Source of the DNA: Nitratireductor indicus C115
GTDB lineage: Bacteria; Pseudomonadota; Alphaproteobacteria; Rhizobiales; Rhizobiaceae
DNA length: 39,527 nucleotides
Direction: 5' to 3'
NCBI RefSeq assembly: GCF_000300515.1
Contig: NZ_AMSI01000021.1
Location: 1-39,527, forward strand
Part shown: piece by piece, positions 14,045 to 36,616 of the stretch
How the letters are laid out: every line of letters begins with the position of its first letter
Position numbering within the stretch: the first letter of the stretch is position 1
The notes under the pieces: generated by a model
Databases searched by the model: none
The model's input: the letters and a program-made list of their open reading frames with translations, nothing else
Told to the model about the DNA's origin: nothing
Position numbers and translations under genes: made by a program

Positions 14045-14773
14045 GTGTCAGTGGATGTTTTGAACGGTCATATCCTGGTGGTTGATGACCATCAGGATAT
14101 TCGAGACCTGGTCGCCGGGCTGCTCGCCAAAGAAGGATATCGCGTCAGCGCTGCAGCGGATGGACGACAAATGCGGCGGCAGCTCATCGAAAGCAGCGTC
14201 GACCTTGTCGTTCTCGATCTCATGTTGCCAGGAGAGGACGGGCTCACCCTTTGTCGCGATCTCAGAGCCACGACCAACATTCCAGTTGTCATGCTCACCG
14301 CGAAAGGCGACGAATTTGATCGTGTCCTCGGTCTCGAGATGGGCGCTGACGACTATCTGACAAAGCCTTTCGGCGGCAGGGAACTCGTGGCCCGAATCCG
14401 CGCGGTCCTCAGAAGGACGCGATCCGTTCCCGCAGGAACGCGAAGCAAAACTGCGTGCGTGTGGCGGTTCGACCGCTGGACATTCGACACGGCGACACGC
14501 TCTCTGAAGTCGATAGATAATGCATTGCTTTCCTTGAGCACTGCCGAATTTAACCTGATGAAAGTATTCGTTGAGCGGCCGCAGATCGTGCTCACGCGGG
14601 ATCAACTCCTCGATTTGACCCGGGGCCGTGAGTCCGAATTCATTGATCGCAGCATCGACACCCGGATCAGCAGGTTGCGGCGGAAGATCGAGGAGGATCC
14701 CCAAAACCCACAAATCCTCAAGACCGTGTGGGGCGACGGCTATGTATTTGCAGCCGACGTGTCGCGTGGATGA
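14045..14773 (+). CDS. OmpR-family response regulator
   Basis: 242 residues. The receiver domain has the acidic pocket (VVDDHQD), phospho-acceptor Asp58 (VVLDLMLPGEDG), the switch Thr (MLTAKG) and Lys (YLTKPFG). A C-terminal winged helix follows (STAEFNLMKVFVERPQIVLTRDQLL ... DRSIDTRISRLRRKIEEDP). The start is GTG with GGGGAG upstream. Its stop overlaps the kinase start (ATGA), so the pair is one unit. Upstream lies an inverted repeat, CAGCAT at 13942-13947 and ATGCTG at 13961-13966, which could be a self-regulatory site. The stimulus and targets are unknown; neighbouring envelope and metal genes are candidates. Confidence 0.95.
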   Translation: MSVDVLNGHILVVDDHQDIRDLVAGLLAKEGYRVSAAADGRQMRRQLIESSVDLVVLDLMLPGEDGLTLCRDLRATTNIPVVMLTAKGDEFDRVLGLEMGADDYLTKPFGGRELVARIRAVLRRTRSVPAGTRSKTACVWRFDRWTFDTATRSLKSIDNALLSLSTAEFNLMKVFVERPQIVLTRDQLLDLTRGRESEFIDRSIDTRISRLRRKIEEDPQNPQILKTVWGDGYVFAADVSRG

Positions 14774-16227
14774 TCGGTTTGCTGCCGAAAAGCCTGAGTG
14801 GCCGAACAGTCGTCATTCTTGTGACGGGCCTTGTTGCGACGCATATGGTCACCCTGCTCGTACTGTCGGAAGATCGAGTTGAGTCGTTGACGCGCACAGA
14901 AGAGCAACACATCGCCCAGCATATTGCGTCTATTGCGAATATTGTTTCAGACGTTCCAAGCGAATGGAGGGATCGGATCGTTCGTTCCTCTGATGGCCAC
15001 CTGTTCAACGTCAGAATAACGCAGGACGATACCAACAACACGATTGAACCTATTGGCACCAGCAACAGCACGCTGGCCGACCTGTTGTTACGACAGGTTC
15101 GACCGGGCACGAGCGAACCGATATCGGTGGACATAAGCGACGCTAACCCCGGCAATACGCCGCTTGCGCCAGATAGCTGGCGGCGGTGGCTGGGTTCGCG
15201 GATCAGTCGCCTCGCCTATGGGCACGACCGCGACCAGGCTGTGCTGGTCTCGGTTCCGCTGTCAGAGGGTCAAAGGCTCAATTTCTCGACGTCGATGCCG
15301 CTGGCTTCGGCACCTGGATGGGAGCGACAACTGGCGGTTACCGGTACCTTCTTGGTTATCGTATTGGCGCTTTCCCTGTGGGCCATCAGGAAGATGTCGA
15401 GCCCACTGGCACTGTTTGCACACGCCGCCACCGCTTTCGCTCGAAATGTCTATGCGCCGTCCTTGCCCGAGACAGGTCCGAGTGAAGTCCGGGAAGCCGC
15501 CCGGGCGTTCAACAACATGCAGAAGCGGGTCCTTCAGACGATCGAAGGGCGAGCCCAAATGCTCGGGGCTATCTCCCACGATTTGCGTACACCGCTAACG
15601 ACAATTCGACTTCGGGCGGAGAGTTTGGGCGATTCCGAGGTCCGGCATCGGATCCTCGCGGCGATCGAGGAGATGGACGCGATGCTTGCCTCCACGCTGG
15701 CTTTTGCCAGAGAGGGAACCGCGCAGGAGGAACCGCAGGCAACGGATATCGGATCCATGTTGGAGGCGATCTGCAGCGATTTCTCGGACATCGGGCACGA
15801 CGTCAGCTTTGTTCCTTGCGGCACAATCGTCGCTGCATGCCGCCCACTGGCTTTGAAGCGAGCATTGTCCAATCTCATCGACAACGCGGTCAAATATGGG
15901 GAGCGCGCTCATGTGGTTGCCAAGGTCAGGGAAGGGATGATCGACATTAGCATCACCGATCAGGGTCCTGGAGTCCCGGACGAAGAGTTGGAGCGCATAT
16001 TCCAACCATTCTACCGCATTGAAAGCTCAAGGAACCGCAACACCGGTGGCGCGGGTCTTGGACTGGCCATCGCCCAGATGGCTCTGGACATGCACGGCGG
16101 ATCGATCCAGCTGGAAAACCGCGGCGAAGCTGGCGGTCTTTGCGTACGGGTCCTGATGCCAGTAGGGACAAACGTCGCCAATCGCGGGGCCGCCCCAAGG
16201 CATCGATCTCGCCAGCCACGCAAGTAG
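14770..16227 (+). CDS. Sensor histidine kinase (EnvZ type)
   Basis: 485 residues. Two membrane helices (about 11-31 and 190-212) bracket a periplasmic domain of about 150 residues, then a HAMP segment (RKMSSPLALFAHAATAFARN). The H-box is GAISHDLRTPLTTIRLRAES with His270, the N-box LIDNAVKYGE, G1 DQGPGVPDEE and G2 GGAGLGLAIAQ. It should phosphorylate the preceding response regulator. The start ATG overlaps the regulator stop by 4 bases. The sensory domain shows no recognised ligand motif. The C-terminal tail is Arg-rich. Confidence 0.95.
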   Translation: MIGLLPKSLSGRTVVILVTGLVATHMVTLLVLSEDRVESLTRTEEQHIAQHIASIANIVSDVPSEWRDRIVRSSDGHLFNVRITQDDTNNTIEPIGTSNSTLADLLLRQVRPGTSEPISVDISDANPGNTPLAPDSWRRWLGSRISRLAYGHDRDQAVLVSVPLSEGQRLNFSTSMPLASAPGWERQLAVTGTFLVIVLALSLWAIRKMSSPLALFAHAATAFARNVYAPSLPETGPSEVREAARAFNNMQKRVLQTIEGRAQMLGAISHDLRTPLTTIRLRAESLGDSEVRHRILAAIEEMDAMLASTLAFAREGTAQEEPQATDIGSMLEAICSDFSDIGHDVSFVPCGTIVAACRPLALKRALSNLIDNAVKYGERAHVVAKVREGMIDISITDQGPGVPDEELERIFQPFYRIESSRNRNTGGAGLGLAIAQMALDMHGGSIQLENRGEAGGLCVRVLMPVGTNVANRGAAPRHRSRQPRK

Positions 16228-16555: not shown

Positions 16556-18103
16556 ATGGATCGTAAAGAGCGCACCGTATTCGTCACGATCCTCATCAAC
16601 GGCCTTCTGATCCTTTTCAAGTTCTGGTTGTCAGCAGCTTCCGGAAGCCTGGCGCTCCGGTCCAGCGCCATTCATTCCCTCGCGGATCTCGCGATCGGCG
16701 TGTTCGTTCTGATAGGTCTGTTCCTGAGCCGTACGAAGCTAGCGGCAGCCGCGCAAAACGGGGCTCGTGCCGTGGAAAATTGGGTGGCGCTGCTTGTTTC
16801 GGCAGCGATCTTCTATGTTGGGCTGGACATTGTCGGGGAGGTCCTTGCAGGAGAGCCTCCAGATTTGAGGAACCTTGGGCCTATCACCCTGGCCTCTCTC
16901 GTTACCGTCGTGGTCGCCTACGTCATTGCCCGCTACAAGCTCTATGTGGGCCGCCAGACAGATTCCCCGGCATTGATTGCCAGCGGCTACCACTCTCAAG
17001 TCGACATATATGCGTCGATTGTCGTTGTGGCCGGCTTGGGAGGAGCCGCTCTCGGCCTGGAGAACCTGGACACGGCTGCAGCGGCCATCGTCGTCGTCAT
17101 GATTTTTCTCTCTGGATTCGAGATCGCCGCTGCTGCGATCACTGCGCTGCGGCATCGTGAGCAGCTGCAAGTGGAAGCCGAGGACGCACACGGTCACCTC
17201 CATAGCCACGGCTGGTTTCGCATTTATGCTCCTATCGCATCGCTCGCCTTGATAGCTCTCTATTTCTTGACCGGCATCTACACGGTCCAGCCTGGGGAAG
17301 TGGCGGTGGTGAGGCGCTTCGGAAAGGTGATCGAAGAGGCGGAGCCTGGAATGCACTATCGCTGGCCAAGCCCGATCGAGACCGTCGACGTGGTTGCGCT
17401 CGATCTGGTGAGACGAATCGAGACCGGCCCTCTCCAGATGCTGACGGGCGACGAGAACCTCATCTCTGTCCGGGCGAGCGTTCAGTTCTCAGTCGGCGAC
17501 GCTTCGGCATTCGTTCTCAATGTATCCGCGCCGGACGACCTCGTCCTCCAGGCCGGCGTGGGAGCCCTGCGCCAGAGCGTTGGTGAGGACGCGGTTGACG
17601 CTGTCCTCACGGTCGACAAGACCGCCATACAGGAAAAAGCCGCGAAGGCTGCCCAGGCGTCGCTCGACCGGAGTGCAGCGGGGATCCGGATCGTCGGCGT
17701 GCAATTGCTCGAGAGCGCGCCGCCTCCCGAAGTGGCTGATGCATTTCGCGACGTCGCGAGCGCGCGGGAAGATCGCAACACCTTCGTCAACGAGGCGCTC
17801 GCCTACCGCAACGAGGTTCTTCCGACCGCGCGCGGCGACGCCGACACCGCGCGGCAGGCTGCGCGAGCCTATGCCGCTGAAAAGCTCGCCTCATCCGCTG
17901 GAGATGCCGCGAATTTCGAAGCGCGGCGACAAGCCTACGCGGCGGCGCCGGATATCACCCGCCAGCGCCTCTACCTCGAGGCCGTGGAGAAATCGCTGGC
18001 TGGTGCCAAGAAATTCGTGATGGACCCGACGATCATCCCGCAATCGACGGATCTTTGGATAACACAACCGGGCAAGGCTCAACTGCTGCCCCCAATGCAA
18101 TAG
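16556..18103 (+). CDS. Fusion of a CDF metal-transporter membrane domain with an HflK-like SPFH domain
   Basis: 515 residues in one uninterrupted frame. Residues 1-200 are a cation diffusion facilitator transmembrane domain. The transport-site ligands are all in place as two HxxxD motifs: His40/Asp44 (IHSLAD) in helix 2 and His146/Asp150 (GYHSQVD) in helix 5, matching site A of YiiP-type Zn exporters. The usual cytosolic CDF dimerisation domain is missing. Instead a linker with a His cluster (HGHLHSHGW, 212-220) leads to a further membrane helix (about 222-242) and an SPFH/band-7 domain (VQPGEVAVVRRFG, PGMHYRWPSPIE) with an Ala/Arg-rich helical tail to 515. The SPFH half resembles the HflK-like protein encoded at 19074. 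The next SPFH gene follows after 23 bases. It presumably couples Zn/Cd transport to an SPFH membrane scaffold (inference). Confidence 0.88.
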   Translation: MDRKERTVFVTILINGLLILFKFWLSAASGSLALRSSAIHSLADLAIGVFVLIGLFLSRTKLAAAAQNGARAVENWVALLVSAAIFYVGLDIVGEVLAGEPPDLRNLGPITLASLVTVVVAYVIARYKLYVGRQTDSPALIASGYHSQVDIYASIVVVAGLGGAALGLENLDTAAAAIVVVMIFLSGFEIAAAAITALRHREQLQVEAEDAHGHLHSHGWFRIYAPIASLALIALYFLTGIYTVQPGEVAVVRRFGKVIEEAEPGMHYRWPSPIETVDVVALDLVRRIETGPLQMLTGDENLISVRASVQFSVGDASAFVLNVSAPDDLVLQAGVGALRQSVGEDAVDAVLTVDKTAIQEKAAKAAQASLDRSAAGIRIVGVQLLESAPPPEVADAFRDVASAREDRNTFVNEALAYRNEVLPTARGDADTARQAARAYAAEKLASSAGDAANFEARRQAYAAAPDITRQRLYLEAVEKSLAGAKKFVMDPTIIPQSTDLWITQPGKAQLLPPMQ

Positions 18104-18126: not shown

Positions 18127-19077
18127 ATGAAACCAGTTCGAATTGCCGCTCTTGGCGTCTTGGGCCTTGCCTTCCTGGGAGCAACATTGACCCTCTATCA
18201 GGTCGACACCACCGAGTACGCGATCGTGACGCAGTTTGGGCGGCCCGTTCGCGTGCTCAGTGACCCTGGTCTCTACATCAAAGCGCCCGACCCCATTCAA
18301 AGTGTCCTAAAAATCAGCAAGCAAATTCAAGTCTACAACCTACCGAAAACGGAATTCCTGAGTAGCGACAAGAAGAACATCATGGTGGAGGCCTATGCCA
18401 CCTGGCAAGTAACGGATGCGCTGGCGTTTCTGAAGAACGTCAACAGCCTGCGCGGCGCCAGCACACAGCTCAACGATATTATCAAAGCTGAGCTCGGAGC
18501 GGCATTGGGACAGGTCGAGCTCGGAAATCTCGTCACAGTCGATACCTCACAGGCGAGCCTTCCAGACACCTTGAATGCCGTGAAGGAGAGGGCTGCAGCC
18601 CGCACGGGTGCTTATGGCTTCACGGTCACAGATATCCAGCTCAAGGAGCTCACGTTCCCGGAGGCCAACCTCACAAGCGTTTTCCAGCGCATGCGCTCGG
18701 AGCGCGAGGCGATCGCACGCCAGTTTCGCTCGGAAGGCGCGGAAGAAGCAGCCAGCATACGAGCGGAAGCCGATACCGAGAAGGCGAAGATTCTCGCCAC
18801 CGCGAGCCGCGAATCCGCAGAGATCCGTGGGACAGCCGATGCTGAAGCGATTGCGATCTATGCGGGCTCCTTCGGCAGGGACAAGGATTTTTACCGCTTC
18901 TCCAGAACGCTCGAAGCCTACGACAAGTTCATTGATGAAGGCACGACGTTGATTTTGCCCGCCGATTCCGAACTGCTTCAGTATCTGGATCCACGAAACG
19001 CTCTGAAACTTCCTCCATCGTCGACCGCGACTGCCGGATCGCCCAAGGTGACCGCGGATTCGGAGCGCGACAGATGA
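18127..19077 (+). CDS. HflC-like SPFH membrane protein
   Basis: About 316 residues. A single N-terminal helix (IAALGVLGLAFLGATLTLYQV) is followed by an SPFH domain (EYAIVTQFGRPVRVLSDPGLYIKAPDPIQSV) and the HflC-type coiled-coil region (FQRMRSEREAIARQFRSEGAEEAASIRAEADTEKAKILA), then YRFSRTLEAYDKF, a hallmark of HflC. In E. coli HflC pairs with HflK in a cage around FtsH. The ATG at 18127 has GCGAGGAC upstream; a TTG at 18055 overlapping the previous gene would add 24 polar residues. It is translationally coupled (ATGA) to the next SPFH gene. No ftsH is in the window. Confidence 0.9.
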   Translation: MKPVRIAALGVLGLAFLGATLTLYQVDTTEYAIVTQFGRPVRVLSDPGLYIKAPDPIQSVLKISKQIQVYNLPKTEFLSSDKKNIMVEAYATWQVTDALAFLKNVNSLRGASTQLNDIIKAELGAALGQVELGNLVTVDTSQASLPDTLNAVKERAAARTGAYGFTVTDIQLKELTFPEANLTSVFQRMRSEREAIARQFRSEGAEEAASIRAEADTEKAKILATASRESAEIRGTADAEAIAIYAGSFGRDKDFYRFSRTLEAYDKFIDEGTTLILPADSELLQYLDPRNALKLPPSSTATAGSPKVTADSERDR

Positions 19078-20201
19078 TGGACGAGGATGTGGCAGAATCA
19101 CCAAAGTCCCCGTCGACGGCGGACGATGGCAGCGGAAAAATTGCCCGCGACGTCGCGATCAAATCGAAACTCCTTGTTCGCGCCATTGCGGAGGGTGGGC
19201 GGTTCGCATTTGCAGACTTCAAGGTCGCTCTCGGCCACCTAAGGCCTGGCCCTCTGCTTGCGGGTGCGGTGATGCTGATCGCTATCGGCTATGCTTTGAC
19301 CGGCGTCTATTCGGTCGCGCCTGGAGAAGCCGCGGTTGTGCGCCGCTTTGGTGCCATTGTCCAACCCAGTGTTGAACCGGGACTCCACTATCGGCTACCG
19401 TGGCCGATCGACCGCGTGGATATCGTCGATGTTACCAGTGTCCGACGTGAGCAAGTGGGCATAAGCGCTCCCGAGGAAGAGCACATACATCCTGAACCTC
19501 CGGCGAAACTTCAGACGCTCTCCGGCGATACCAATGTTGTCGATGTAGAAGTCATCGTGCAGTATCAGGTGCGCGAGCCAGCCAACTACATACTCAACGT
19601 CGAATACGCTCCATATCGCATCGTCCGAGACGCGCTCCGGGCATCGGTCACCGGGCTGGTAACACGTCTTCCGGTCGATGCATTGCTAACCAGCGGACGG
19701 CAGTCCTTGCAACAAGCCATCCGCGAGGAGACACAATCGCGTCTGGATCAGTATCGGACCGGCCTCGTTATCGTCGGCGTTGACCTGCAGAAAGCGTTCC
19801 CTCCTGCCAGCGTCGCGGATGCCTTCACAGGCGTCAATACCGCGCGCGAGGAAAAGGCCCGTCTGATCAATGAGGCACGAGGATATGCGAACAGCCTCGT
19901 CCCGGAAGCTAGAGGTCAGGCACAGCAACTGAAGGCACAGGCTGCCGCTTACCGATCCGCCGTTCTGGCGCGCGCAAGCGGAACGGCACGCGCGTTCGAT
20001 CTTCTTTGGGACGAGTATCGAAAGAATGCAGAAGCCTACGGCGAAGATGTGACCCGATATCGGATGTATCTTGAGACCATCGAGAAAATCATGCCTCGCG
20101 TGCAGGTTTATGCTCTGGATACCGCGAAAGGCGGCAGCTTCAACCTGAGACTGTATGGCACTCAGAATGGCGTACCAACTAACGGTGAGGCGGCGCGCTA
20201 G
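19074..20201 (+). CDS. HflK-like SPFH membrane protein
   Basis: 375 residues. A cytosolic N-terminus of about 55 residues, one membrane helix (about 60-78) and an SPFH domain (VAPGEAAVVRRFG, PGLHYRLPWPIDRVDIV, KLQTLSGDTNVVDVEVIVQYQV) are followed by the helical FPPASVADAFTGVNTAREEKARLINEA region typical of HflK. The gene overlaps the HflC-like gene by 4 bases and lies two bases before the chaperone gene. Block-by-block similarity to the SPFH half of the fusion protein suggests that one arose from the other by duplication. It probably forms hetero-oligomers with the HflC-like protein in the membrane. Confidence 0.9.
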   Translation: MMDEDVAESPKSPSTADDGSGKIARDVAIKSKLLVRAIAEGGRFAFADFKVALGHLRPGPLLAGAVMLIAIGYALTGVYSVAPGEAAVVRRFGAIVQPSVEPGLHYRLPWPIDRVDIVDVTSVRREQVGISAPEEEHIHPEPPAKLQTLSGDTNVVDVEVIVQYQVREPANYILNVEYAPYRIVRDALRASVTGLVTRLPVDALLTSGRQSLQQAIREETQSRLDQYRTGLVIVGVDLQKAFPPASVADAFTGVNTAREEKARLINEARGYANSLVPEARGQAQQLKAQAAAYRSAVLARASGTARAFDLLWDEYRKNAEAYGEDVTRYRMYLETIEKIMPRVQVYALDTAKGGSFNLRLYGTQNGVPTNGEAAR

Positions 20202-20203
20202 CC

Positions 20204-22369
20204 ATGGCGGATGGTTGGCGTCAGATCTGGTCCGATTTTCGCAATAGCCTCAGCGGAAAGCCATCGAATCCGGACAGCGATCGCACGGTCGAACCTCCAG
20301 AATCGGCTGACAACCACGCTACTATCGCATCCGGTCCACCAATTGCCACTGCCTCACCAGAACCTCCTGGGTCCGATCCGGCCGCAGCGGAGTCGATGCC
20401 CGATGACTCGGGGCAGCTCACGGAAAGCCCACCGTCAGAGGCAGAATCGACGGCTGACTCAGATCAGGCTCAGCCGGCGCCAGCACGGCGACCGACACTG
20501 GGTCAGTATGTGGCGAGCATTTTCGCGATCACGACCATTCCCGCCGCGCTCGTCTTCTTCACTTCGGACTATTTCGCCGACATGGCACTCCCATCTCCTC
20601 CGGCCCCCAACGTCGTCGCGACATTCGAGGGGGGACAGATAACCCTTGAAGACATCGAATCTCACCTGAATGTGCTCTCCTCGTCCACCAGCAGCCCTGG
20701 TCCCATGTCGCAAGAAGCACTTCTTGAGACGGTTGAAGATCTTATTTCGGATCAACTGATTCTCCGATGGGCAGCAAATCGAAAGCCGGAAGCCGACGAG
20801 AGCTTCCAACATGCGATCAAGCACATAAATGAAAATCTCAATCTCGAATCCTTCGCGGACCAGCTTCATACCGAACGCATCTCAATCTCCGAAAGCAGCA
20901 TCCGCGATTACTACGATAAGAACAAAACGCGCTATGAAGGACGTCGCTTTACCGAAGTGCGCGATGAGATACGGCGGACCCTGGTTGCCGAGCAGGAACC
21001 CGCTTTTGTCGAAGATTATTTGGAGAAGTTGCGAACAAGCGGATCGATCACTCGTAGTTTCGATCTCCTGGACGTGCCTGCTCCGAGCCAGGAGGAGCTT
21101 GAGACCTACTACCGACAGAACATCGACCAATTCAAATTGCCACGCCGCGCCATTGCTGATGAACTGGAGTTCAGTGCATCACAATTCGGCCCGAAGGCCC
21201 AACAAGAGGCGGCCAGCGCCTTACTGAGCATCCAGGGCGGCGCAACATTCCAGGCGACAGCAGAGCGATACTCGAAGGCACGTTTTTCATCCCGGGCGGA
21301 GGTGCCCGAAGGCAGCAAGAACCCCGATTGGGACAAAAACGTCTTCGCACTGGTTCCCGGGGAACTGGCGAGCGTGTTTCAGGCAGGCGGATCGTATTAT
21401 GTCGTCCGCCTTCAGGAGGTCATGCCCGCGGGCGCAAAGAGCTTAGTCGAAGTCCGCCCGACGATCATGACAACCGTACGCGCGCAAAAGGAACAGCAAT
21501 GGTTCGCGGAGAACGGCGAAAAGACGCTCTTCACGATCAAGGGACAGCGCTACAGCCTTCGCGATTTCTACAAGGAATATGAGGAAGCGTCACTTCGCGA
21601 CCAGTTCGAAGGCGCAGAGGGTCTCAAACGTTTGGCAGACGCGCTAATTGATCGCATGCTCCTGGTATCGGACACCTATGACAAGTTGCTCGACGTCGCA
21701 AACAAACCCCTTGCCGACGAAACGCGACTTCGTTTGCTGCGGCAAATGATGGAGCAGGAGGAGGTGGACGACCGGATCGATGTCACCGACGAGCAAATTC
21801 AAGCATTCTACTCCGACAATCGCGATCGCCTTGTGAGTCCTCCGATGTCGAGAATCCGTTATGTCCGTATCGGTCTTGGCTCGAGCGAGGCGGACGCGAG
21901 TCGTGCACGCGAACGTTCAGACGAAGCCTATCGGAAGCTGACAGGAGCAGTCCCGGGGTCGGACTTTGCCTCGGTAGCGCAGGAGTATTCCGAGGATGTC
22001 GAAACAGCTTCAAAGGGTGGCGAGTTCCCTGGTTGGATCGGCGAAAGCGGGGATCCACTAGGCGAACTGATGAGCCACCCATTCCATGAAGCGATTCAAG
22101 ACATGGAGCCGGGAAAAGTTGGCAAACCTTTCGAGTTGGGAGGCAGCATCTACATCGTGGAAGTGACGGAACGAACCTCGCCGCAACAGTTAATTCTTGA
22201 CGAGGCAAAGCCCTTTATCGAGGAGTACCTGACCAACCAACAGCATCGCTCCATGGCCGATGAATTGCAGAGGCGGCAACTCCAAGAAGCCAAGGTGCAG
22301 TTGTATCCGCAGGTTCTGGAAAAATATCTCACGCGCGCGGCCTCTCGCGAACAACCGCCATCGCCGTAG
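20204..22369 (+). CDS. Membrane-anchored PpiD/SurA-like chaperone with two parvulin domains
   Basis: 721 residues. Residues 1-100 form a Pro/Ser/Glu-rich cytosolic tail, then one membrane helix (about 101-120). The periplasmic part starts with a SurA-type N-terminal segment (ATFEGGQITLEDIESHL, from about 138). Two parvulin-like domains follow at about 310-405 (RRAIADELEFSASQF ... PGELASVFQAGGSYYVVRL) and 545-650 (MSRIRYVRIGL ... GGEFPGWIGESGDPL ... GKPFELGGSIYIVEV). The layout matches PpiD, which works at the Sec translocon exit, but with an extra isomerase domain and a longer cytosolic tail. It starts two bases after the HflK-like stop with no intervening promoter. The whole SPFH-PpiD block is therefore one transcript. 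Confidence 0.88.
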   Translation: MADGWRQIWSDFRNSLSGKPSNPDSDRTVEPPESADNHATIASGPPIATASPEPPGSDPAAAESMPDDSGQLTESPPSEAESTADSDQAQPAPARRPTLGQYVASIFAITTIPAALVFFTSDYFADMALPSPPAPNVVATFEGGQITLEDIESHLNVLSSSTSSPGPMSQEALLETVEDLISDQLILRWAANRKPEADESFQHAIKHINENLNLESFADQLHTERISISESSIRDYYDKNKTRYEGRRFTEVRDEIRRTLVAEQEPAFVEDYLEKLRTSGSITRSFDLLDVPAPSQEELETYYRQNIDQFKLPRRAIADELEFSASQFGPKAQQEAASALLSIQGGATFQATAERYSKARFSSRAEVPEGSKNPDWDKNVFALVPGELASVFQAGGSYYVVRLQEVMPAGAKSLVEVRPTIMTTVRAQKEQQWFAENGEKTLFTIKGQRYSLRDFYKEYEEASLRDQFEGAEGLKRLADALIDRMLLVSDTYDKLLDVANKPLADETRLRLLRQMMEQEEVDDRIDVTDEQIQAFYSDNRDRLVSPPMSRIRYVRIGLGSSEADASRARERSDEAYRKLTGAVPGSDFASVAQEYSEDVETASKGGEFPGWIGESGDPLGELMSHPFHEAIQDMEPGKVGKPFELGGSIYIVEVTERTSPQQLILDEAKPFIEEYLTNQQHRSMADELQRRQLQEAKVQLYPQVLEKYLTRAASREQPPSP

Positions 22370-22450: not shown

Positions 22451-25222
22451 ATGAACGCTGCAGCACGCCGCACCCGCTTTCGGGTTGAAGGCATGGATTG
22501 CGCAAGTTGCGCCGCCAAGATCGACAAAGCGGTCCGACGAATACCGGATGTCACAGATGTGAACGTGTCGGTTGTTGCTGGCACCGTGAGCGTTGAACAC
22601 GGAGACAAGCTCGATCTCGACACACTGGCCCAAAAGGTCAACCGGCTAGGCTATAAGGCCACACGCCTTGGTGCGGTGAAGAAGTCGAAGGCTGCGGAGA
22701 CCGCCCACGGTCAAGGCCGAAAATCCAACCATGCGGACCATGATCACGAGCACGTCGATCACGATCATTCGGGTCATGACCATGCCGGTCATGCGCATGG
22801 GCCGAAATGCAACCATGATCATCCTCCCCATGACCACGGCGATCACGATCATACGAGGCACGATCATTCCGCACATGTTCATGGTGCGGACTGCAAGCAC
22901 GACCATGCTGATCGCGATCACGCGGGGGACAGTCATTCAGGCGAAGATCGCGCTGCGAGTAGTTTTATCGAGGAGACTACGTCGGCAGGCGCGCATCAGA
23001 CCCGCTTTCGCGTCGCCGGCATGGATTGCGCGAGCTGCGCGGCCAAGATCGACACCGCAGTGCGTCGAATGCCGGATGTTACCGACGTGAAGGTTTCGGT
23101 GGTCGCCGGGACCATGACCGTTACGCATGAAAGCAATGCCGACATTGAAGGTCTCGCCCGCAAAGTCACCAGCCTTGGCTACAAGGCCGTGCCGATTCCG
23201 GCTTCCGGCCAGAAGTCAGGCTCTCCGGCTGCGGATCATGTCCACGGCCCGGATTGCCGTCACGAGCAGGATTCAAAGGCGGGCGGCAGTGGTGCCGGAA
23301 CCCCTGACGCGCTGGAAGGCATGCATGGCCATGATCACGGTCCCCAGGATGGACCATGGTGGAAAACATCCAAGGCGCAATTGACTGTCGTCTGCGGCAT
23401 TGCGCTGGCTGTCGCCTTCGTGCTGTCCAAATTGTTCCCGCAAACGCAGCCCTGGGGCTTCATCGCCGCCATGGCGGTCGGGCTGATCCCGATCTCCCGG
23501 CGTGCCCTGTTCGGCGCGGTCAATGGAAGTCCGTTCACCATCGAGACATTGATGACGGTCGCCGCGGTCGGGGCTGTCATCATCGACGCGGCCGAAGAGG
23601 CGGCGGTCGTGGTTTTCCTGTTCCTTGTCGGCGAGCTGCTCGAAGGCATCGCAACGGGCCGTGCCCGCGCCAGCATCCGGGCATTGGCGACACTGATGCC
23701 GAAAACGGCCTTGCTGGAGCGCGATGGCACGACGCAGACAGTTCCGGCGGAGAGCCTGTCTATCGACGCGGTGGTGCTTGTGCGGCCCGGTGACCGGGTG
23801 CCGGCGGACGGAGACGTCATTTCCGGCGAAAGCGCGGTCGACGAGGCGCCGGTAACCGGCGAGTCGGTGCCCAAGCGCAAGGAACCGGGAGACAAGGTTT
23901 TTGCGGGCACGGTGAATCAGGAAGGCGTGCTCAGGGTTCGCGTGACCGCCGCCGCCGAGGACAACACCATCTCGCGGATCATCGCCCTGGTCGAGGAGGC
24001 TCAGGAGTCGAAGGCTCCCACCGAACGGTTTATCGACCGCTTCTCTAAATACTACACGCCGGCGGTGATGGTCGTGGCCGCCCTGATCGCGATCCTGCCG
24101 CCGCTTCTTGCCGGTGCGGAATGGAACACCTGGATCTATCGCGGCCTTGCGGTGCTGCTGATCGGCTGCCCCTGCGCGCTCGTCATTTCAACGCCTGCAG
24201 CGATTGCCGCGGCTCTTTCCGCGGGCGCGCGCCGGGGCCTGCTCATGAAGGGCGGGGCGGTGCTGGAAAATCTCGGCAAGGTCGATTACGTCGCGCTCGA
24301 CAAGACGGGAACCTTGACGGAAGGCAAGCCGAAGGTCACCGATATTGTCGGCATCTCGCGTGACGAACGCGAAGTGCTGCGGCTTGCCGCCGCGCTTGAG
24401 GCCGGATCGAGCCATCCGCTGGCGACTGCGATCCTTGCCAGAGCGGAAGCCGAGGACGTCACGATCGTCGCGGCCAGCAATGCCGGCGCCATCGGCGGCA
24501 AGGGCGTTACCGGCACGGTGGATGGCGTCAAGCTGTTCCTGGCGTCTCCGAAAGCCGCAGCCGAGGAGGTTTCGCTCGACGCGGAACTGCAATCCCGCAT
24601 TGCCGCACTGAACGACGAAGGCAAGACGGTTTCGGTGCTGCTTGCGGGCGACGAGGTGGCGGGTCTGTTCGCCATTCGCGACGAACCGCGGGACGATGCA
24701 AAAACCGGCATAGCCGCCCTTCACGATCTCGGGGCCGGCACTGTGATGCTGACCGGCGACAACCGGCGCACCGCTGAAGCCATCGCGGCCTCGCTCGGCA
24801 TGGAGGCCCGCGCCGAGTTGATGCCGCAGGACAAGCAGAAGATTGTCGGTGAGCTTCGCGGCACAGGAAAGTTCGTGGCCAAGGTCGGCGACGGGATTAA
24901 TGATGCGCCAGCGCTCGCCGCCGCCGACATCGGCATCGCCATGGGCAGCGGTACGGACGTGGCGCTGGAAACGGCTGATGCCGCCGTCCTGCATGGCCGC
25001 GTCAGGGACGTCGCCAACATGATCTTGCTGTCGCGTCTCACAATGCGCAACATCCTCCAGAATATCACGCTTTCACTTGGCCTGAAGGTGGTGTTCCTGG
25101 TGACTACGGTTCTCGGCATCACCGGGCTTTGGCCCGCCATCCTGGCCGACACCGGCGCGACGGTGCTGGTCACGGCCAATGCGATGCGGCTGCTGGCCTG
25201 GAAGGGACTGCGCGACGCATGA
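22451..25222 (+). CDS. P1B-type Zn/Cd/Pb-exporting ATPase with two HMA domains and His-rich linkers
   Basis: 923 residues, longer than the usual 700-750. Two N-terminal heavy-metal-associated domains each carry GMDCASC (Cys17/Cys20 and Cys193/Cys196). Between them, and again after the second, lie linkers dense in His and Asp (about 82-160 and 250-295). The pump core has the TGES actuator loop, the transmembrane CPC (573-575), DKTGTL with phosphorylated Asp617, and GDGINDAPAL. The last helices carry NxxxxLxLK and DTGATVLVTANAMRLL, the P1B-2 (Zn2+/Cd2+/Pb2+) signature. It exports these metals from the cytosol. It has its own MerR-type promoter but sits directly behind the SPFH operon. Its substrate is inferred from subgroup motifs. 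Confidence 0.95.
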   Translation: MNAAARRTRFRVEGMDCASCAAKIDKAVRRIPDVTDVNVSVVAGTVSVEHGDKLDLDTLAQKVNRLGYKATRLGAVKKSKAAETAHGQGRKSNHADHDHEHVDHDHSGHDHAGHAHGPKCNHDHPPHDHGDHDHTRHDHSAHVHGADCKHDHADRDHAGDSHSGEDRAASSFIEETTSAGAHQTRFRVAGMDCASCAAKIDTAVRRMPDVTDVKVSVVAGTMTVTHESNADIEGLARKVTSLGYKAVPIPASGQKSGSPAADHVHGPDCRHEQDSKAGGSGAGTPDALEGMHGHDHGPQDGPWWKTSKAQLTVVCGIALAVAFVLSKLFPQTQPWGFIAAMAVGLIPISRRALFGAVNGSPFTIETLMTVAAVGAVIIDAAEEAAVVVFLFLVGELLEGIATGRARASIRALATLMPKTALLERDGTTQTVPAESLSIDAVVLVRPGDRVPADGDVISGESAVDEAPVTGESVPKRKEPGDKVFAGTVNQEGVLRVRVTAAAEDNTISRIIALVEEAQESKAPTERFIDRFSKYYTPAVMVVAALIAILPPLLAGAEWNTWIYRGLAVLLIGCPCALVISTPAAIAAALSAGARRGLLMKGGAVLENLGKVDYVALDKTGTLTEGKPKVTDIVGISRDEREVLRLAAALEAGSSHPLATAILARAEAEDVTIVAASNAGAIGGKGVTGTVDGVKLFLASPKAAAEEVSLDAELQSRIAALNDEGKTVSVLLAGDEVAGLFAIRDEPRDDAKTGIAALHDLGAGTVMLTGDNRRTAEAIAASLGMEARAELMPQDKQKIVGELRGTGKFVAKVGDGINDAPALAAADIGIAMGSGTDVALETADAAVLHGRVRDVANMILLSRLTMRNILQNITLSLGLKVVFLVTTVLGITGLWPAILADTGATVLVTANAMRLLAWKGLRDA

Positions 25223-27441: not shown

Positions 27442-28191
27442 CTATGTCGATGGGTGCGGGGAGGCATGGGCGAGAAACGGGAACGACTCCATTTCCGTCA
27501 ACGACATCTTCACCCGCACCTGGTCGTTACCCATCGGGACAATTCCGTTGATCGTAACATTCCCGATTTCGGATGTGTTGCGTACGTGGAGCCCGTCGCA
27601 GGCTTGAACCTCGAAATTGCCGAGGCCGACAACACGAATGGCGTCGCGGGCCTGGGGCCACGTGAACTGTTCCACCCGTTCATCGCTGGCCAATTTGGTC
27701 GGTTCGCGCCAGCCGACATCGACTGGCAGGTCCTGTGTCGCCAGCCTGTGAACCTGATGCTGCAGCAAGGTAGTGCTCATGGCCGTGTGATCGACCTTGA
27801 AATCAATGTGGCCACGCCCCGGCCCCACCTGGCCCCCAACGATGGCGAACGGGAAAGCGAGCGCGATGATGTGCAGCGCGGTGTGCGTTCTCATGCGCAG
27901 ATAGCGCTGCATCGAGTCGACCTTCACGGTCACCTCGTCGCCAATCGCTAAGCGGCCAGCATTGATGTCAACACGATGGCCCAGCCTCCCATGCTCGAGC
28001 CAGACGCCACCAAGAACGCCAAGTCGTGTTCCGTCGTCGAGAAGCAGAGACCCGCAATCAGGCGACGAAACGCCGATCCCAGGATAATAGACGGTCCGGT
28101 CGACGACGAGGATGTCGCCACGCATGTCGAGAACCCTCGCAACAGTGTCAGTCCTATAGGGCCTCTGTGCATTATCGGGACATAGATTCAC
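27442..28191 (-). CDS. alaX: Alanyl-tRNA editing protein (AlaX-like)
   Basis: About 249 residues from a GTG at 28191. The zinc/catalytic motifs of the AlaRS editing domain are present: HxxxH in RTHTALHII and CxxxH in CDGLHVRNTSEIG. The N-terminal barrel has VVDRTVYYPGIGVSSPDCGSL in place of the usual DRTxFYPxGGGQPxDxG, so its glycine loop is altered. It should hydrolyse Ser- or Gly-mischarged tRNA-Ala. The first codons overlap the last 20 bases of the transposase gene on the same strand, so the natural 5' end and promoter may have been replaced by transposon sequence; the start is uncertain. Confidence 0.82.
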   Translation of the reverse strand: MNLCPDNAQRPYRTDTVARVLDMRGDILVVDRTVYYPGIGVSSPDCGSLLLDDGTRLGVLGGVWLEHGRLGHRVDINAGRLAIGDEVTVKVDSMQRYLRMRTHTALHIIALAFPFAIVGGQVGPGRGHIDFKVDHTAMSTTLLQHQVHRLATQDLPVDVGWREPTKLASDERVEQFTWPQARDAIRVVGLGNFEVQACDGLHVRNTSEIGNVTINGIVPMGNDQVRVKMSLTEMESFPFLAHASPHPST

Positions 28192-31135
28192 GGTAGCTAT
28201 CGGGGATTCGAAGGGGCATGAGTCCGTCGGCATCGAGTTCAATGCCGTCTGACCAGACATAATCGCCGGTGAGGTTGATCCGGTCCCAGCCCAAAGGTGA
28301 AAGCTGCGAGAGTAGAGCGGGATCAATTTTCACTCCGCGACTTCCAAGTTCACTCACGGCGCGGTCGAGATAGCGGCAGTTGAACAGGATGATTGCGGCG
28401 GTGACGAGATTGAGTGCTGCCGCTCGCATTTGCTGATTTTCGATACCGCGATCCCGGAAGCGGCCGAGCCGGTGGAACGCAACCGCGCGCGCCAGACTGT
28501 TTCGCGCTTCGCCCTTATTGAGTTCACCCGTGACAAGCTGGCGAAGCGCCGGATCCTTGAACCATCGCAATGTGAAGAGTGTGCGCTCGATACGGCCGAC
28601 CTCGCGAAGGGCAGCGGCAAGGCTGTTTTGTTGCCGGTAGGCTGAGAGCTTTTTCAGGATCAGCGATGGGGTGATGGTTCGGTCGCGCATCGCCCTAATG
28701 ACGCGATGAATGTCGGGCCAGTGATTGACGATCAGATCGCGGTTGAGCCTGTTCCCGAACAGCGGCGCGAGGCGTCCGTAACGCTTGGGCGGCTCGAAGG
28801 AATAGAGGCGGCGATCGGAGAGGCGCGGAATACGTGGCTCAAAATCAAGCCCGAGCAGGTCCATGACCGCAAACACGATATCGGAGACGCCGCCGCCATC
28901 GACGTGCAGCGCGGAAAGGTTGGCGTTGCTTTCGTGGCCGAGAATGCCGTCGAGGGCATGGATCGCTTCGCCGGCAGTGCCCGCGATCACGGTTTGATGG
29001 AGCGGTGCGTAGCGGTCGGTGATGGTGGTGTAGATTTTGACGATCGGGTCGCGGCCGTAATGCGCGTTGACCTGACCGCCAGCCTCCCCGGCGCCACCAA
29101 GATAATAAGCCTGCCCATCGGCAGAGGCGCGCCAGCCCTCACCGAACCAGGCCGCCATTGGTTCGGCCTGTATGGCGTCGGTCAGACAGCCGAGCGCGGC
29201 GCGAAACGTCTCTTCACGCATGTGCCACGTCTGCATGCGCAGGAGCGTGCGCCGCGATGCCACGCCGCAGACCTCAGCCATCCGTGACAGGCCGAGGTTC
29301 GTCGCTTCCGCAATCATAGCTGCGAGAAAGGATCGTTCATCGCTGGGCGGCAACCCGGTCGAGACATGACCGAAATGGCTGGTGAAACCGGTCCAACGTT
29401 CGACCTGAGACAAAACATCGGTGATGCGCGTCGTCGGCACGAGATTGTAGCAGGTCCGGACGAACTGTCTGCCATCGTCGCGTTCGGCAAGATCGGTTTT
29501 CGGCTCTTTCGGAAACCGCAGTCGGTCACCGGAAAACAGCGCGGGATCGCCGCTGGTCAGCCCCCCTGATACCTTGAGCAGCGCAGTATCCAGTTCGGCC
29601 GCGCGGGCATCGAGCCACACATGAGGATCAGGAATATCGGAGACCTGTGCCGGGACCGGATCCGTACTCGGTGAAAGCAGCGTTTCCAGAGAGCGGTGCA
29701 GTCGGGAGGTTGGCACCCAGATGTCGCCCGCCGCCAGTGCTCCAGCCAACGCGGAATAGGTCGCCAGCTCCCAATGGGTTCGGTCGATCTTGTCGTCCGT
29801 GACGACATAGCGCTGCCATCGCCGCTCGATATGCCCGAGCGGCAAGCCATCAGGGAGCGCCGTGCGCCAGTCGCCATCGAGTTCGGCCAGGATCGCCATC
29901 GCTGCACGGAGCGGCGCGGTACCCTTGCGACCCTCGAACGTGAACGCTTTCAGGAAGCGCGGCCCCGCCCGCTTGAACGTCCGATATTCTGGCCCGATTT
30001 CACTGATGGCATTATCTCGTCCCGGCCTCGTGGTTCGCCGGAGAAGAGCAGCGTCGGCATCGATCGTATCGAGCGAGGCGACCGCTGCGACCGCTGCTGC
30101 AATATCGCCGCCGGCGCGTGCGGCTTTGCTGACCGCCTCAAGCACGTCGGCGACACGGATTAATCGGTCGCGGCCCTGGTCGGCAGAAGCGGCAACCGTC
30201 TGTTCAAGGCGTTTGCGGGCACGCAGATGCGCTCGCCCGATGAGCGAGTCGAACATACCGATAGCTGTGTCAGTCAGCGTGGCCTCAAACTCGCGCAGCG
30301 TCGCCACAAGAATAACATGCCGCCGCGCCGACCCCATCTGCTGGAATGCCTGCGCGGTGTAGCGGACCCCTTCGCGCGCAAATTGCTCCATTCGGGGTTC
30401 GTATCGTCTATCGATGGCGGGCGTCCTGATGCCGCGAACCAGTGCGATCTTGTCAAGAATACCGACGAGCGAGGCAGAGGCGACGCGCGGGGTGGGTTCC
30501 CGTAGCCAGGAAAATCGGCTTTGCCTATCGTGCGTTTTCTCGGCGATAAGCGCGTCAAGTCGGCTATGGGTGGCCGGATCGAGACGATTGTCGATGTCGG
30601 CGATGATCCGGTTTTCGGCCGCGTGCATCGCTTCGGCGGCCATGCGCTCGACCACGGTGATTCCGGAAATGACTATCTTACGGAAGCGCAGTTCGTCGAG
30701 GAAGTTGCCCAACAAGACGCGTCCGTTGGTCAGGCCGACAGCTTCGGCTTCCAGCCACGCTCGAAGCGTTGCGCGCATCGGCTTGGTGAGGTCGGTGAAC
30801 CCGAAACGCGCCTTGATCGCGAGAAGCTGATCGTAGCGTGTGGGCGTCCGTCGTGCGAAACCGCCGATCACTTCTGCATCGATCCCGATCTGCTCAGCGA
30901 TATGGTCGAGCATGACAGCGGGCAGCAATTCGCCGCGTCGGAGATGCCTCCCCGGATAACGCAGACAGCAAAGCTGCAAAGCATAGCCAAGCCGGGTCTC
31001 AGGCGTGCGGGCGCTGTTGATGGCAGCTAGGTCGTTTACGTCCAGACTGTGATGGCGGACGACCGTCGTCTCGTCTTCGGGCAGCGCCAACAAAGCGTCG
31101 CGCTGAGGGCCGGTCATGTAAATGCGTGCTGGCAT
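28172..31135 (-). CDS. tnpA: Tn3-family transposase
   Basis: 987 residues, the normal length for the family, with no internal stop. The N-terminal DUF4158-like DNA-binding region (LALPEDETTVVRHHSLDVNDLAAIN, RTPETRLGYALQLCCLRYPGR) and the C-terminal DDE Tnp_Tn3 domain (HVDGGGVSDIVFAVMDLLGLDFEPRIPRLSDRRLY ... LNLVTAAIILFNCRYLDRAV) are both clear. It catalyses cointegrate transposition. AAGGGA precedes the ATG. Its stop lies inside the beginning of alaX. Confidence 0.96.
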   Translation of the reverse strand: MPARIYMTGPQRDALLALPEDETTVVRHHSLDVNDLAAINSARTPETRLGYALQLCCLRYPGRHLRRGELLPAVMLDHIAEQIGIDAEVIGGFARRTPTRYDQLLAIKARFGFTDLTKPMRATLRAWLEAEAVGLTNGRVLLGNFLDELRFRKIVISGITVVERMAAEAMHAAENRIIADIDNRLDPATHSRLDALIAEKTHDRQSRFSWLREPTPRVASASLVGILDKIALVRGIRTPAIDRRYEPRMEQFAREGVRYTAQAFQQMGSARRHVILVATLREFEATLTDTAIGMFDSLIGRAHLRARKRLEQTVAASADQGRDRLIRVADVLEAVSKAARAGGDIAAAVAAVASLDTIDADAALLRRTTRPGRDNAISEIGPEYRTFKRAGPRFLKAFTFEGRKGTAPLRAAMAILAELDGDWRTALPDGLPLGHIERRWQRYVVTDDKIDRTHWELATYSALAGALAAGDIWVPTSRLHRSLETLLSPSTDPVPAQVSDIPDPHVWLDARAAELDTALLKVSGGLTSGDPALFSGDRLRFPKEPKTDLAERDDGRQFVRTCYNLVPTTRITDVLSQVERWTGFTSHFGHVSTGLPPSDERSFLAAMIAEATNLGLSRMAEVCGVASRRTLLRMQTWHMREETFRAALGCLTDAIQAEPMAAWFGEGWRASADGQAYYLGGAGEAGGQVNAHYGRDPIVKIYTTITDRYAPLHQTVIAGTAGEAIHALDGILGHESNANLSALHVDGGGVSDIVFAVMDLLGLDFEPRIPRLSDRRLYSFEPPKRYGRLAPLFGNRLNRDLIVNHWPDIHRVIRAMRDRTITPSLILKKLSAYRQQNSLAAALREVGRIERTLFTLRWFKDPALRQLVTGELNKGEARNSLARAVAFHRLGRFRDRGIENQQMRAAALNLVTAAIILFNCRYLDRAVSELGSRGVKIDPALLSQLSPLGWDRINLTGDYVWSDGIELDADGLMPLRIPDSYRESMSR

Positions 31136-31264
31136 CGGTTATCCCTTTCAAAAATCACTTGCCTTTTGATACAGTTTTGCAAGAGGATTGTGAAAGGCAT
31201 TGAGCCTTGATTTGCGGTCATGGTCATCCTGCTTCCGTAGACGGCCGTTTGTGAAAGGATCGAA
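31136..31264. promoter_or_regulatory. Probable res region between tnpA and tnpR
   Basis: 129 bases separating the divergent transposase and resolvase genes, the usual place for the resolution site and both promoters. TGAAAGG occurs twice in direct orientation (31191-31197 and 31252-31258) and once inverted (31144-31150). The outer copies coincide with the ribosome binding sites of the two genes. No further res subsites could be resolved by eye. Confidence 0.5.
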
Positions 31265-31864
31265 TTGAGCACCGCACCTTATTTGATCGGCTATGCTCGC
31301 GTGTCGAAGGGGGACGACCAGTCGAACGCAGCACAGTTGCGCGCGCTGACGGCAGCGGGTTGTAAACGCGTCTTCGAAGAATCCGCCAGCGGCGGGCGAT
31401 GGGACCGGCCGAGGCTCCAGGAGATGATCGGCCAGCTACGGGATGGCGATGTCGTTGTTGTCTGGAAGCTCGACCGGCTTTCGCGAAGCCTGAAAGACCT
31501 GCTGCACTTGATGGAAAAGATCGAAGCGGCGGGGGCCGGCTTCCGGTCGCTGACCGAAGCGATCGACACGACGACACCGGCAGGCCGCATGATGATGCAG
31601 ATGGTCGGCTCATTCGCCGAGTTCGAGCGCGCCATGATCCGCGAGCGGACTAGCGCAGGGCTAGCGCAGGCGCGGTTGGAAGGGCGGCTCGGTGGTCGGC
31701 GGCGCAAACTTGACGATAAGAAACGGCGTGAGATCGCCGAATCCGTTGTTGCGGGGCGCAAGTCCGGCGCCGAGATGGCGCGGCTCTATGACGTGAGCGA
31801 GCCAACCGTCTCAAGAATCGTTGCCGAATATCGTCAGCGGGAAGCCCATGAGGCCTTGGCATGA
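31265..31864 (+). CDS. tnpR: Serine resolvase of the Tn3-family element
   Basis: 199 residues. The resolvase/invertase catalytic domain is intact (IGYARVSKGDDQSNAAQ with the nucleophile Ser, VVVVWKLDRLSRSLKDLL, and GRMMMQMVGSFAEFERAMIRERT), followed by a C-terminal Hin-type helix-turn-helix (GRKSGAEMARLYDVSEPTVSRIVAEY). It resolves transposition cointegrates at res. The start is TTG with AAAGGA upstream. Confidence 0.93.
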   Translation: MSTAPYLIGYARVSKGDDQSNAAQLRALTAAGCKRVFEESASGGRWDRPRLQEMIGQLRDGDVVVVWKLDRLSRSLKDLLHLMEKIEAAGAGFRSLTEAIDTTTPAGRMMMQMVGSFAEFERAMIRERTSAGLAQARLEGRLGGRRRKLDDKKRREIAESVVAGRKSGAEMARLYDVSEPTVSRIVAEYRQREAHEALA

Positions 31865-35998: not shown

Positions 35999-36616
35999 AT
36001 GAGTAATCAGTCCAAGGGCAGTGCCACTTCATCCGAGAAGAGCGAACAATGGGCGCTCGCATGGGTGCTTGCGATCAATACGGCCCAGGCAGCCATTGTG
36101 GGGGGATTAGGGTGGTGGGCTCAGTCAACAGGATTGATGGGCTCTGCACTCGATAATCTTGGCGATGCCGGTGTCTACGCTATTAGCCTTTTCGTCGTAG
36201 GTCGCGGTTTGGCGGCGAAGGTTCGAGTTGCCCGGCTGTCGGGTATCCTTCTGATGGTTTTCGCTGGTCTTCTTCTATTTGAAGTCGGTCGTCGCTTCTT
36301 CACTGGCTCCGATCCGATAGGGCCGGTCATGATTGCCGTGGCAATCGCGAGCGCGCTTACGAATATGATCTGCATGTGGTTCCTGAATTCTCATCGGGAA
36401 GGCGGCGTGCATCTGCAAGCCTCATGGATTTTCACGACAAACGACATGCTCGTGAACTCAGCCATCGCGCTTTCGGGTCTGGCCGTAATCCTTTTCAATT
36501 CGCCCTACCCGGATCTGATCATCGGCCTGGGCGTGGTTGTTGTCGTTGTCAGAAGCGGCTTGGAAATTCTTGAAAAGGCCGGGGAAGCTGGAGAGAAAGT
36601 TAATCAACATGATTAG
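35999..36616 (+). CDS. Short CDF-type cation transporter
   Basis: 205 residues with about six membrane helices and no cytosolic C-terminal CDF domain. In helix 2 the ligand pair is Asp52/Asp56 (DNLGDAGVYAISL). In helix 5 the usual HxxxD is FTTND (Phe145, Asp149), so the His is missing; the WxxxxND pattern appears typical of this short subgroup often placed beside Cd/Zn ATPases. GAGGTG precedes the ATG. The stop overlaps the PCuAC gene by 8 bases. It probably assists efflux, though the substrate is not known. Confidence 0.82.
   Translation: MSNQSKGSATSSEKSEQWALAWVLAINTAQAAIVGGLGWWAQSTGLMGSALDNLGDAGVYAISLFVVGRGLAAKVRVARLSGILLMVFAGLLLFEVGRRFFTGSDPIGPVMIAVAIASALTNMICMWFLNSHREGGVHLQASWIFTTNDMLVNSAIALSGLAVILFNSPYPDLIIGLGVVVVVVRSGLEILEKAGEAGEKVNQHD

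Follow-up and report, generated by a model that had tools for sequence, protein, structure and literature searches.

In the window analysed here, a 39,527-nucleotide stretch of Nitratireductor indicus C115 DNA (contig NZ_AMSI01000021.1, forward strand), a single open frame joins the transmembrane domain of a CDF metal transporter to an HflK-type SPFH protein. Twelve full-length copies of this fusion were found, the window's included, down to 37% identity. The favoured reading, plausible but tentative, makes the protein a subunit of an HflK/HflC-type membrane dome and at the same time a CDF efflux transporter coupled to protons or metal, with assembly and transport both inferred. Its most likely use, put forward with equal caution, would be to export Zn/Cd-type ions from grouped and stabilised units when the envelope is under stress. 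The features on which the argument draws are as follows.

14045..14773, forward strand: OmpR-type response regulator (Response_reg, Trans_reg_C)
14728..16227, forward strand: sensor histidine kinase (HAMP, HisKA, HATPase_c); the true start may be downstream of 14728
16556..18103, forward strand: CDF::HflK fusion gene, 515 aa (open frame with ATG start; Pfam and NCBIfam matches; 11 further full-length copies)
16577..17149, forward strand: CDF transmembrane domain, residues 8-198
16673-16675, 16685-16687, 16991-16993 and 17003-17005, forward strand: site A codons for H40, D44, H146 and D150, respectively
17156..17230, forward strand: variable linker, residues 201-225, predicted to be cytosolic (low identity, dN/dS, pLDDT)
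17222..17278, forward strand: seventh transmembrane helix, equivalent to the HflK helix, residues 223-241 (hydropathy; E. coli HflK alignment; model helix)
17282..17797, forward strand: SPFH (Band_7) domain, residues 243-414, with a long helix after it that runs to about residue 463
18127..19077, forward strand: HflC-like partner, 316 aa (Band_7; hflC TIGR01932, 175.7 bits, cut-off 134.4; start codon)
19074..20201, forward strand: HflK2, a second, unfused HflK, 375 aa (hflK TIGR01933, 220.4 bits, cut-off 159.4; gene order)
20204..22369, forward strand: membrane-anchored PpiC-type peptidyl-prolyl isomerase (PPIase), 721 aa (Rotamase_2 in two stretches, Rotamase_3; hydrophobic segment at residues 103-121)
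22451..25222, forward strand: P-type ATPase with two HMA domains, Zn/Cd/Pb type by profile (Pfam; NCBIfam)

Two Domains in One Frame

Both halves of the protein were recognised by domain profiles. In Pfam, Cation_efflux matched residues 8-198 (E 1.1e-25, 91 bits, cut-off 26.6) and Band_7 matched residues 243-414 (E 1.6e-21). In NCBIfam, CDF TIGR01297 scored 88.2 bits (cut-off 82.35) and HflK TIGR01933 scored 216.6 bits (cut-off 159.4), with the longer HflK model PRK10930 at 177.4 bits, below its cut-off of 660. A search for these two domains had been suggested in a first-pass annotation of the window, and its description of a continuous frame encoding one polypeptide is upheld by the open frame and by both domains scoring above the profile cut-offs. 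The CDF match stops at residue 198 and the match to E. coli HflK starts at residue 226, extending to 489 with 35-36% identity in this region (E 6.8e-47). The annotation had listed a complete SPFH domain, an absent cytosolic CDF domain and an extra membrane helix; the first two stand, but the helix is the normal N-terminal helix of HflK, as the start of the E. coli match indicates.

The linker between the halves has 25% identity to that of L008 and 19% to that of L063 (4/21 positions), two of the more divergent copies described below. It had been described as His-rich, which does not hold as a feature of the fusion: residues 199-225 contain five, three, one and no His across four aligned copies. 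A His-rich linker acting as a general metal relay was ruled out because the His count is not conserved, and on these alignments the His-rich linker is a local feature. The linker also bears on the possibility of two products, in which an internal start in or near it would yield free HflK besides the fusion and leave few CDF units per ring. Among the 11 copies considered (L063 excluded), all nine of the window group have an in-frame GTG as codon 206, and L008 and L009 have one as codon 213, but the two positions are not homologous, codons 191-250 contain no ATG except in L007 (at 241), and the operon already provides an unfused HflK. Two products are therefore considered very unlikely.

Copies of the Fusion and Their Divergence

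A scan of genome contigs, which used exact peptides of the window's protein and is biased to close relatives, identified ten loci: L010 and nine others with full-length copies at 65-98% identity. L003 and L004 encode identical proteins, and those of L008 and L009 are almost identical. L010 (7600-8427) matches residues 1-229 only and continues with 20 residues of unrelated sequence about 140 bases before the contig end, which suggests that this end is rearranged or chimeric. A further copy, 96.7% identical, is carried by the finished Aquibium oceanicum plasmid NZ_CP018172.1, which is typed as conjugative (L017); among 61 plasmid records with a match, one covers at least 80% of the protein. RefSeq calls the plasmid fusion just "FtsH protease activity modulator HflK", a name that makes the transporter half easy to miss in the deposited annotation.

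Viral contigs returned nothing when the fusion or its CDF half was used as a direct query. The HflK half retrieved one contig, with a whole-length copy that is 37% identical (L063; Cation_efflux 8.6e-18 and Band_7 1.1e-25 in Pfam). A rescan of the viral contigs with the L063 copy in the alignment gave the same contig and no other, and neither of the two phage records matching this copy covers the CDF half. Contig IMGVR_UViG_2751185592_000002 (L081, L082) carries phage terminase, portal and capsid genes with the whole module, together with ArsR and P-type ATPase genes and a transglutaminase-like gene on the other strand.

The survey for the same fusion that had been proposed at the outset thus yielded 11 further full-length copies, with the halves joined in each. 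An artefact, in which an assembly error or frameshift at 17150-17250 joined two genes, was rejected and has a negligible probability. Nothing spoke for it except L010, where similarity to the family stops at residue 229 near a contig end; against it, the same architecture occurs in the other copies, one of them on a finished plasmid, and there is purifying selection on both sides of the junction. In comparisons with L006, L007 and L008, dN/dS was 0.03, 0.03 and 0.10 for the CDF half, 0.06, 0.10 and 0.14 for the SPFH half, and 0.13, 0.10 and 0.83 for the linker, values that are rough because dS is near or above 1. The closer pairs with L001, L017 and L004 gave 0.01-0.12 and 0.17-0.30 from few changes. 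Both halves are under purifying selection.

The halves have also diverged together. At the deepest split, with L063, identity is 39% for each (78/199 in the CDF half and 103/264 in the HflK half); to L008 it is 74% for the CDF half versus 65% for the HflK half. In a tree built from 56 HflK stretches, six of them from fusions and six from HflK2, the fusions formed one clade (100/96) and the HflK2 proteins another (100/99), and in both L063 branched first, then L008, then the rest; the L063 rows were flagged as long branches, and the tree carried a warning of one doubtful join. The simplest reading of these sequences would be one fusion event followed by joint inheritance.

Surveys of 385, 397, 398, 341 and 219 genomes (overlapping sets), in which at most the best 3, 7, 7, 8 and 6 candidates per genome, respectively, were scored, revealed no further fusion. 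With a full-length alignment, 302/385 genomes of the class sample matched at E <= 1e-40; among the matches listed, only that of the own genome spans residues 1-515, and the next row (E 1.2e-68) starts at residue 224. The 37%-identical copy scores 2.6e-116 with the same alignment, so a similar copy in the class sample should have topped the list. The CDF half matched 1/397 genomes in the order sample (the own genome), 3/398 in the phylum sample (the own genome and two CDFs without HflK) and 1/341 in the order of the L009 genome (the L009 genome itself). A deeper alignment matched 27/219 genomes of the phylum sample at E <= 1e-70, where only the own match is whole-length and the other 26 begin at residue 214 or later. 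Within the sampled genomes, the fusion is rare.

Long CDF frames in two genomes, G804 and G861 (L055, L056), were considered as fusions on account of their length and rejected, as a full CDF is followed by other sequence and the HflK matches lie on other contigs. These CDF genes encode 453-470 aa with a long non-HflK C-terminal extension and, by eye, lie next to a sigma-54-type regulator-like gene. No CDF was found near the HflK of G338 (L025), the best unfused match among those listed; in L057, the window's proteins matched HflK and HflC and nothing else.

The CDF Half

Site A residues H40, D44, H146 and D150 are identical in 4/4 aligned rows (the window, L006, L008 and L063, the last at about 38% identity), and the four intact ligands lie where the first-pass annotation had placed them. 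They align with site A of YiiP, in helices 2 and 5. An HDHD site A is usual in zinc-type CDFs; YiiP/FieF, the solved CDF type, differs in having Asp at the first ligand, where the fusion has His. Two further elements of YiiP (PMC4995437) set it apart: site B (D68, H71, H75) is not recognisable in the fusion, which also lacks the C-terminal cytosolic domain and its site C.

This cytosolic dimerisation domain, missing from the fusion, is usual but not universal in CDFs. A CDF without a cytoplasmic domain is on record (Russell and Soulimane 2012, as referenced in PMC4995437), and MmCDF3 is described in the same source as a transmembrane domain without a cytosolic domain, like the CDF half of the fusion. 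A second CDF in the window (35999-36616, 205 aa) likewise has a transmembrane domain and no cytosolic domain; it differs from the fusion in having no SPFH part and in lacking the conserved TM5 His. A missing cytosolic domain is thus nothing unusual by itself. The small CDF gene sits between a P-type ATPase gene and PCu(A)C, SCO1 and DsbD-like genes. For the fusion, a Zn/Cd-type metal is a guess from site A and the neighbouring genes, several of which are copper genes.

Topology and Structure Prediction

Membrane topology was predicted from hydropathy and the positive-inside rule. The window's protein has seven hydrophobic segments, with K+R counts of 3/3/3/3 in loops 0, 2, 4 and 6 versus 1/1/0 in loops 1, 3 and 5; the corresponding counts for L008 are 3/4/3/5 versus 1/1/1. 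For L063, a plain hydropathy scan picked up six segments and overlooked that of the TM4 region. The predicted arrangement has the N terminus inside, six CDF helices, a cytosolic linker, a seventh helix running from inside to outside, and a periplasmic SPFH domain. Six helices thus precede the HflK-type helix of the fusion; HflK itself has one N-terminal helix before SPFH.

The first-pass annotation had proposed that SPFH replaces the cytosolic CDF domain, an idea rejected on this prediction, which places SPFH on the opposite face of the membrane. Its related proposal, that the SPFH oligomer takes over assembly, survives in part: many transport units in one assembly are plausible, but in-place substitution for the lost domain conflicts with the predicted topology.

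Structure prediction of the fusion alone, also suggested earlier, was informative for the halves but not for how they are placed. The first model had a pLDDT of 59.4 and a pTM of 0.35, and a second, with L063 added, had a pLDDT of 69.8 and a pTM of 0.36. The modelled halves match YiiP and HflK, and a helix is predicted at residues 221-238, with pLDDT < 50 at residues 200-222. At a pTM of 0.36, the relative placing of the CDF and HflK halves is not determined by the model.

Operon and Genomic Context

The fusion, HflC, HflK2 and PPIase genes are closely spaced, with 23 bases after the fusion stop codon, a 4-base overlap and 2 bases between successive genes. Their order is the same in nine loci besides the window (L001, L002, L004-L009 and L017), with the PPIase of L017 reading in two overlapping pieces; the L003 contig ends inside HflC. 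The L063 contig has the same four genes, and its HflC and HflK2 are 52% and 45% identical to the window's. In the window group and on the L063 contig, the response regulator and kinase genes precede the operon and share its direction; in L008 and L009 they are divergent. The window's kinase scores best in NCBIfam with EnvZ, CpxA and heavy-metal sensor models, none of these scores reaching the cut-off.

The P-type ATPase gene downstream of the window's operon scores 530.8 bits with TIGR01512 (cut-off 313.5) and 845 bits with NF008262, below the cut-off of 1005. Such a gene follows the operon in the window, L001, L002, L004-L007 and L017, and on the L063 contig it comes after an ArsR gene; none was found in the stretches fetched for L008 and L009. 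The L008 neighbourhood contains ZIP, SCO1 and two Caa3_CtaG genes. At each locus the neighbours are thus metal genes, with zinc and copper types represented overall. A Tn3-type transposase and a resolvase are encoded at 28172-31864 of the window, between the operon and a second P-type ATPase gene, in keeping with a mobile metal island. The wider window also contains DsbA-like, PPIase and L,D-transpeptidase genes.

Comparison with HflK/HflC of E. coli

In E. coli, HflK/C is periplasmic, with 24 alternating subunits around FtsH, and controls access to this protease; HflK Arg191 is said to contact FtsH (PMC12048511). The HflK half of the fusion resembles this cage protein, with the helix, SPFH domain and long helix matching by predicted fold, and the fusion system likewise has an HflC partner in the operon and a predicted periplasmic SPFH domain. 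The cytosolic N-terminal tail of HflK is exchanged for the six-helix CDF domain. Compared with E. coli, the fusion operon adds a second, unfused HflK and a PPIase, and there is no FtsH alongside: the own genome has two FtsH, neither on the window's contig. Canonical HflK is also kept, as three HflK proteins score above the cut-off in 9/9 fusion genomes (those behind L001-L009).

These comparisons allow two other accounts. In one, the CDF half would be an ordinary exporter, working as a dimer or through crowding in the ring, and the HflK half would do its ordinary FtsH job, with the fusion securing only equal amounts and a common place. The CDFs that exist without a cytosolic domain (35999-36616 and the reference in PMC4995437), the unconstrained linker sequence and the two FtsH in the own genome, which could partner any HflK, are all in line with such loose coupling. 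It is nevertheless judged unlikely, because the junction is still fused at 37% identity with both halves diverging at the same rate, and because equal dosage alone does not explain the second, unfused HflK in the operon.

The other account treats the CDF half mainly as a sensor: metal at site A would alter the HflK/C ring and hence FtsH access, or would mark metal-damaged membrane proteins for FtsH, with the isomerase serving the periplasmic side. The role of HflK/C in governing FtsH access in E. coli (PMC12048511) is in its favour, as are the membrane-anchored PPIase of the operon and the DsbA-like, PPIase and L,D-transpeptidase genes of the wider window. The contig carries no FtsH gene, however, and the four intact ligands, together with a CDF half that is the more conserved against L008, suit a transporter at least equally; this account is distinctly unlikely.

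Discussion

Under the favoured dome model, HflC and the two HflK proteins would co-assemble into a ring, with the CDF units attached where the HflK helices begin, on the cytosolic side, and lying in the membrane plane around or inside the ring. Zn/Cd-type ions would pass from the cytosol to the periplasmic side and exit under the SPFH dome, which would hold the transport units together and keep them stable without the cytosolic dimer domain, and which could retain or pass along the exported metal. The isomerase would aid envelope protein folding under metal stress, and the two-component system would turn the operon on. If units are held by the ring, the missing cytosolic dimer domain would be explained without SPFH standing in its place. 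Against this model, a CDF may need to be a dimer, which puts the pairing of ring neighbours in question.

Stomatin forms an SPFH dome that is cytosolic. This dome encloses aquaporin-1 and urea transporter-B, and the authors of that work call such domes membrane-bound microcompartments (PMC12407830). Their "membrane-encapsulin" idea, a transport protein within SPFH-enclosed membrane, is what is proposed here for the fusion by analogy (PMC12407830). The two differ in that the stomatin cargo is a separate protein, whereas the fusion's subunit would itself include the transporter and form a periplasmic dome. On this comparison, the best reading of the fusion would be a covalent version of the stomatin/aquaporin-1 enclosure.

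Plasmid-borne hflK-hflC pairs offer a further hint. Fourteen such regions were drawn from the 61 plasmid records, for which the plasmid gene table is incomplete. A cation/proton antiporter lies within about 6 kb in 6/14 (L065, L066, L067, L069, L074 and L077), a raw count, and no cation/proton antiporter was found in the other 8/14 with flanks of 6 to 9 kb. These counts hint that mobile HflK/C pairs may often serve ion transporters. A bolder extension of the dome model, somewhat doubtful, is a self-loading enclosure, in which each fused HflK would bring its own exporter and many exporters would empty into a common periplasmic chamber. Toxic metal would be confined there or passed on, with no need for the CDF dimer domain, and the four-protein unit, controlled by a two-component system of its own, would have moved between bacteria on plasmids and a phage-like element.

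A CDF and HflK in one chain was not described in the open-licence literature searched, which agrees with the first-pass statement that no characterised protein has this architecture and is no proof that it is undescribed. The words "cation", "transport" and "fused" are absent from the accessible part of a survey of prokaryotic SPFH proteins (PMC2636767).

How SPFH rings affect the transporters within them is an open question; stomatin was reported in 2025 to enclose aquaporin-1 and UT-B, for a purpose not yet known. In a natural fusion, the identity of the ring's transporter is set, and so is the number that can be present, which makes the purpose testable in one small operon through metal tolerance, site A changes and structure. 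For CDFs, the fusion tests whether the cytosolic dimer domain is dispensable when another assembly holds the units. The joined form and its partner genes persist in bacteria that are distant from one another, which suggests a transporter with an enclosure of its own.
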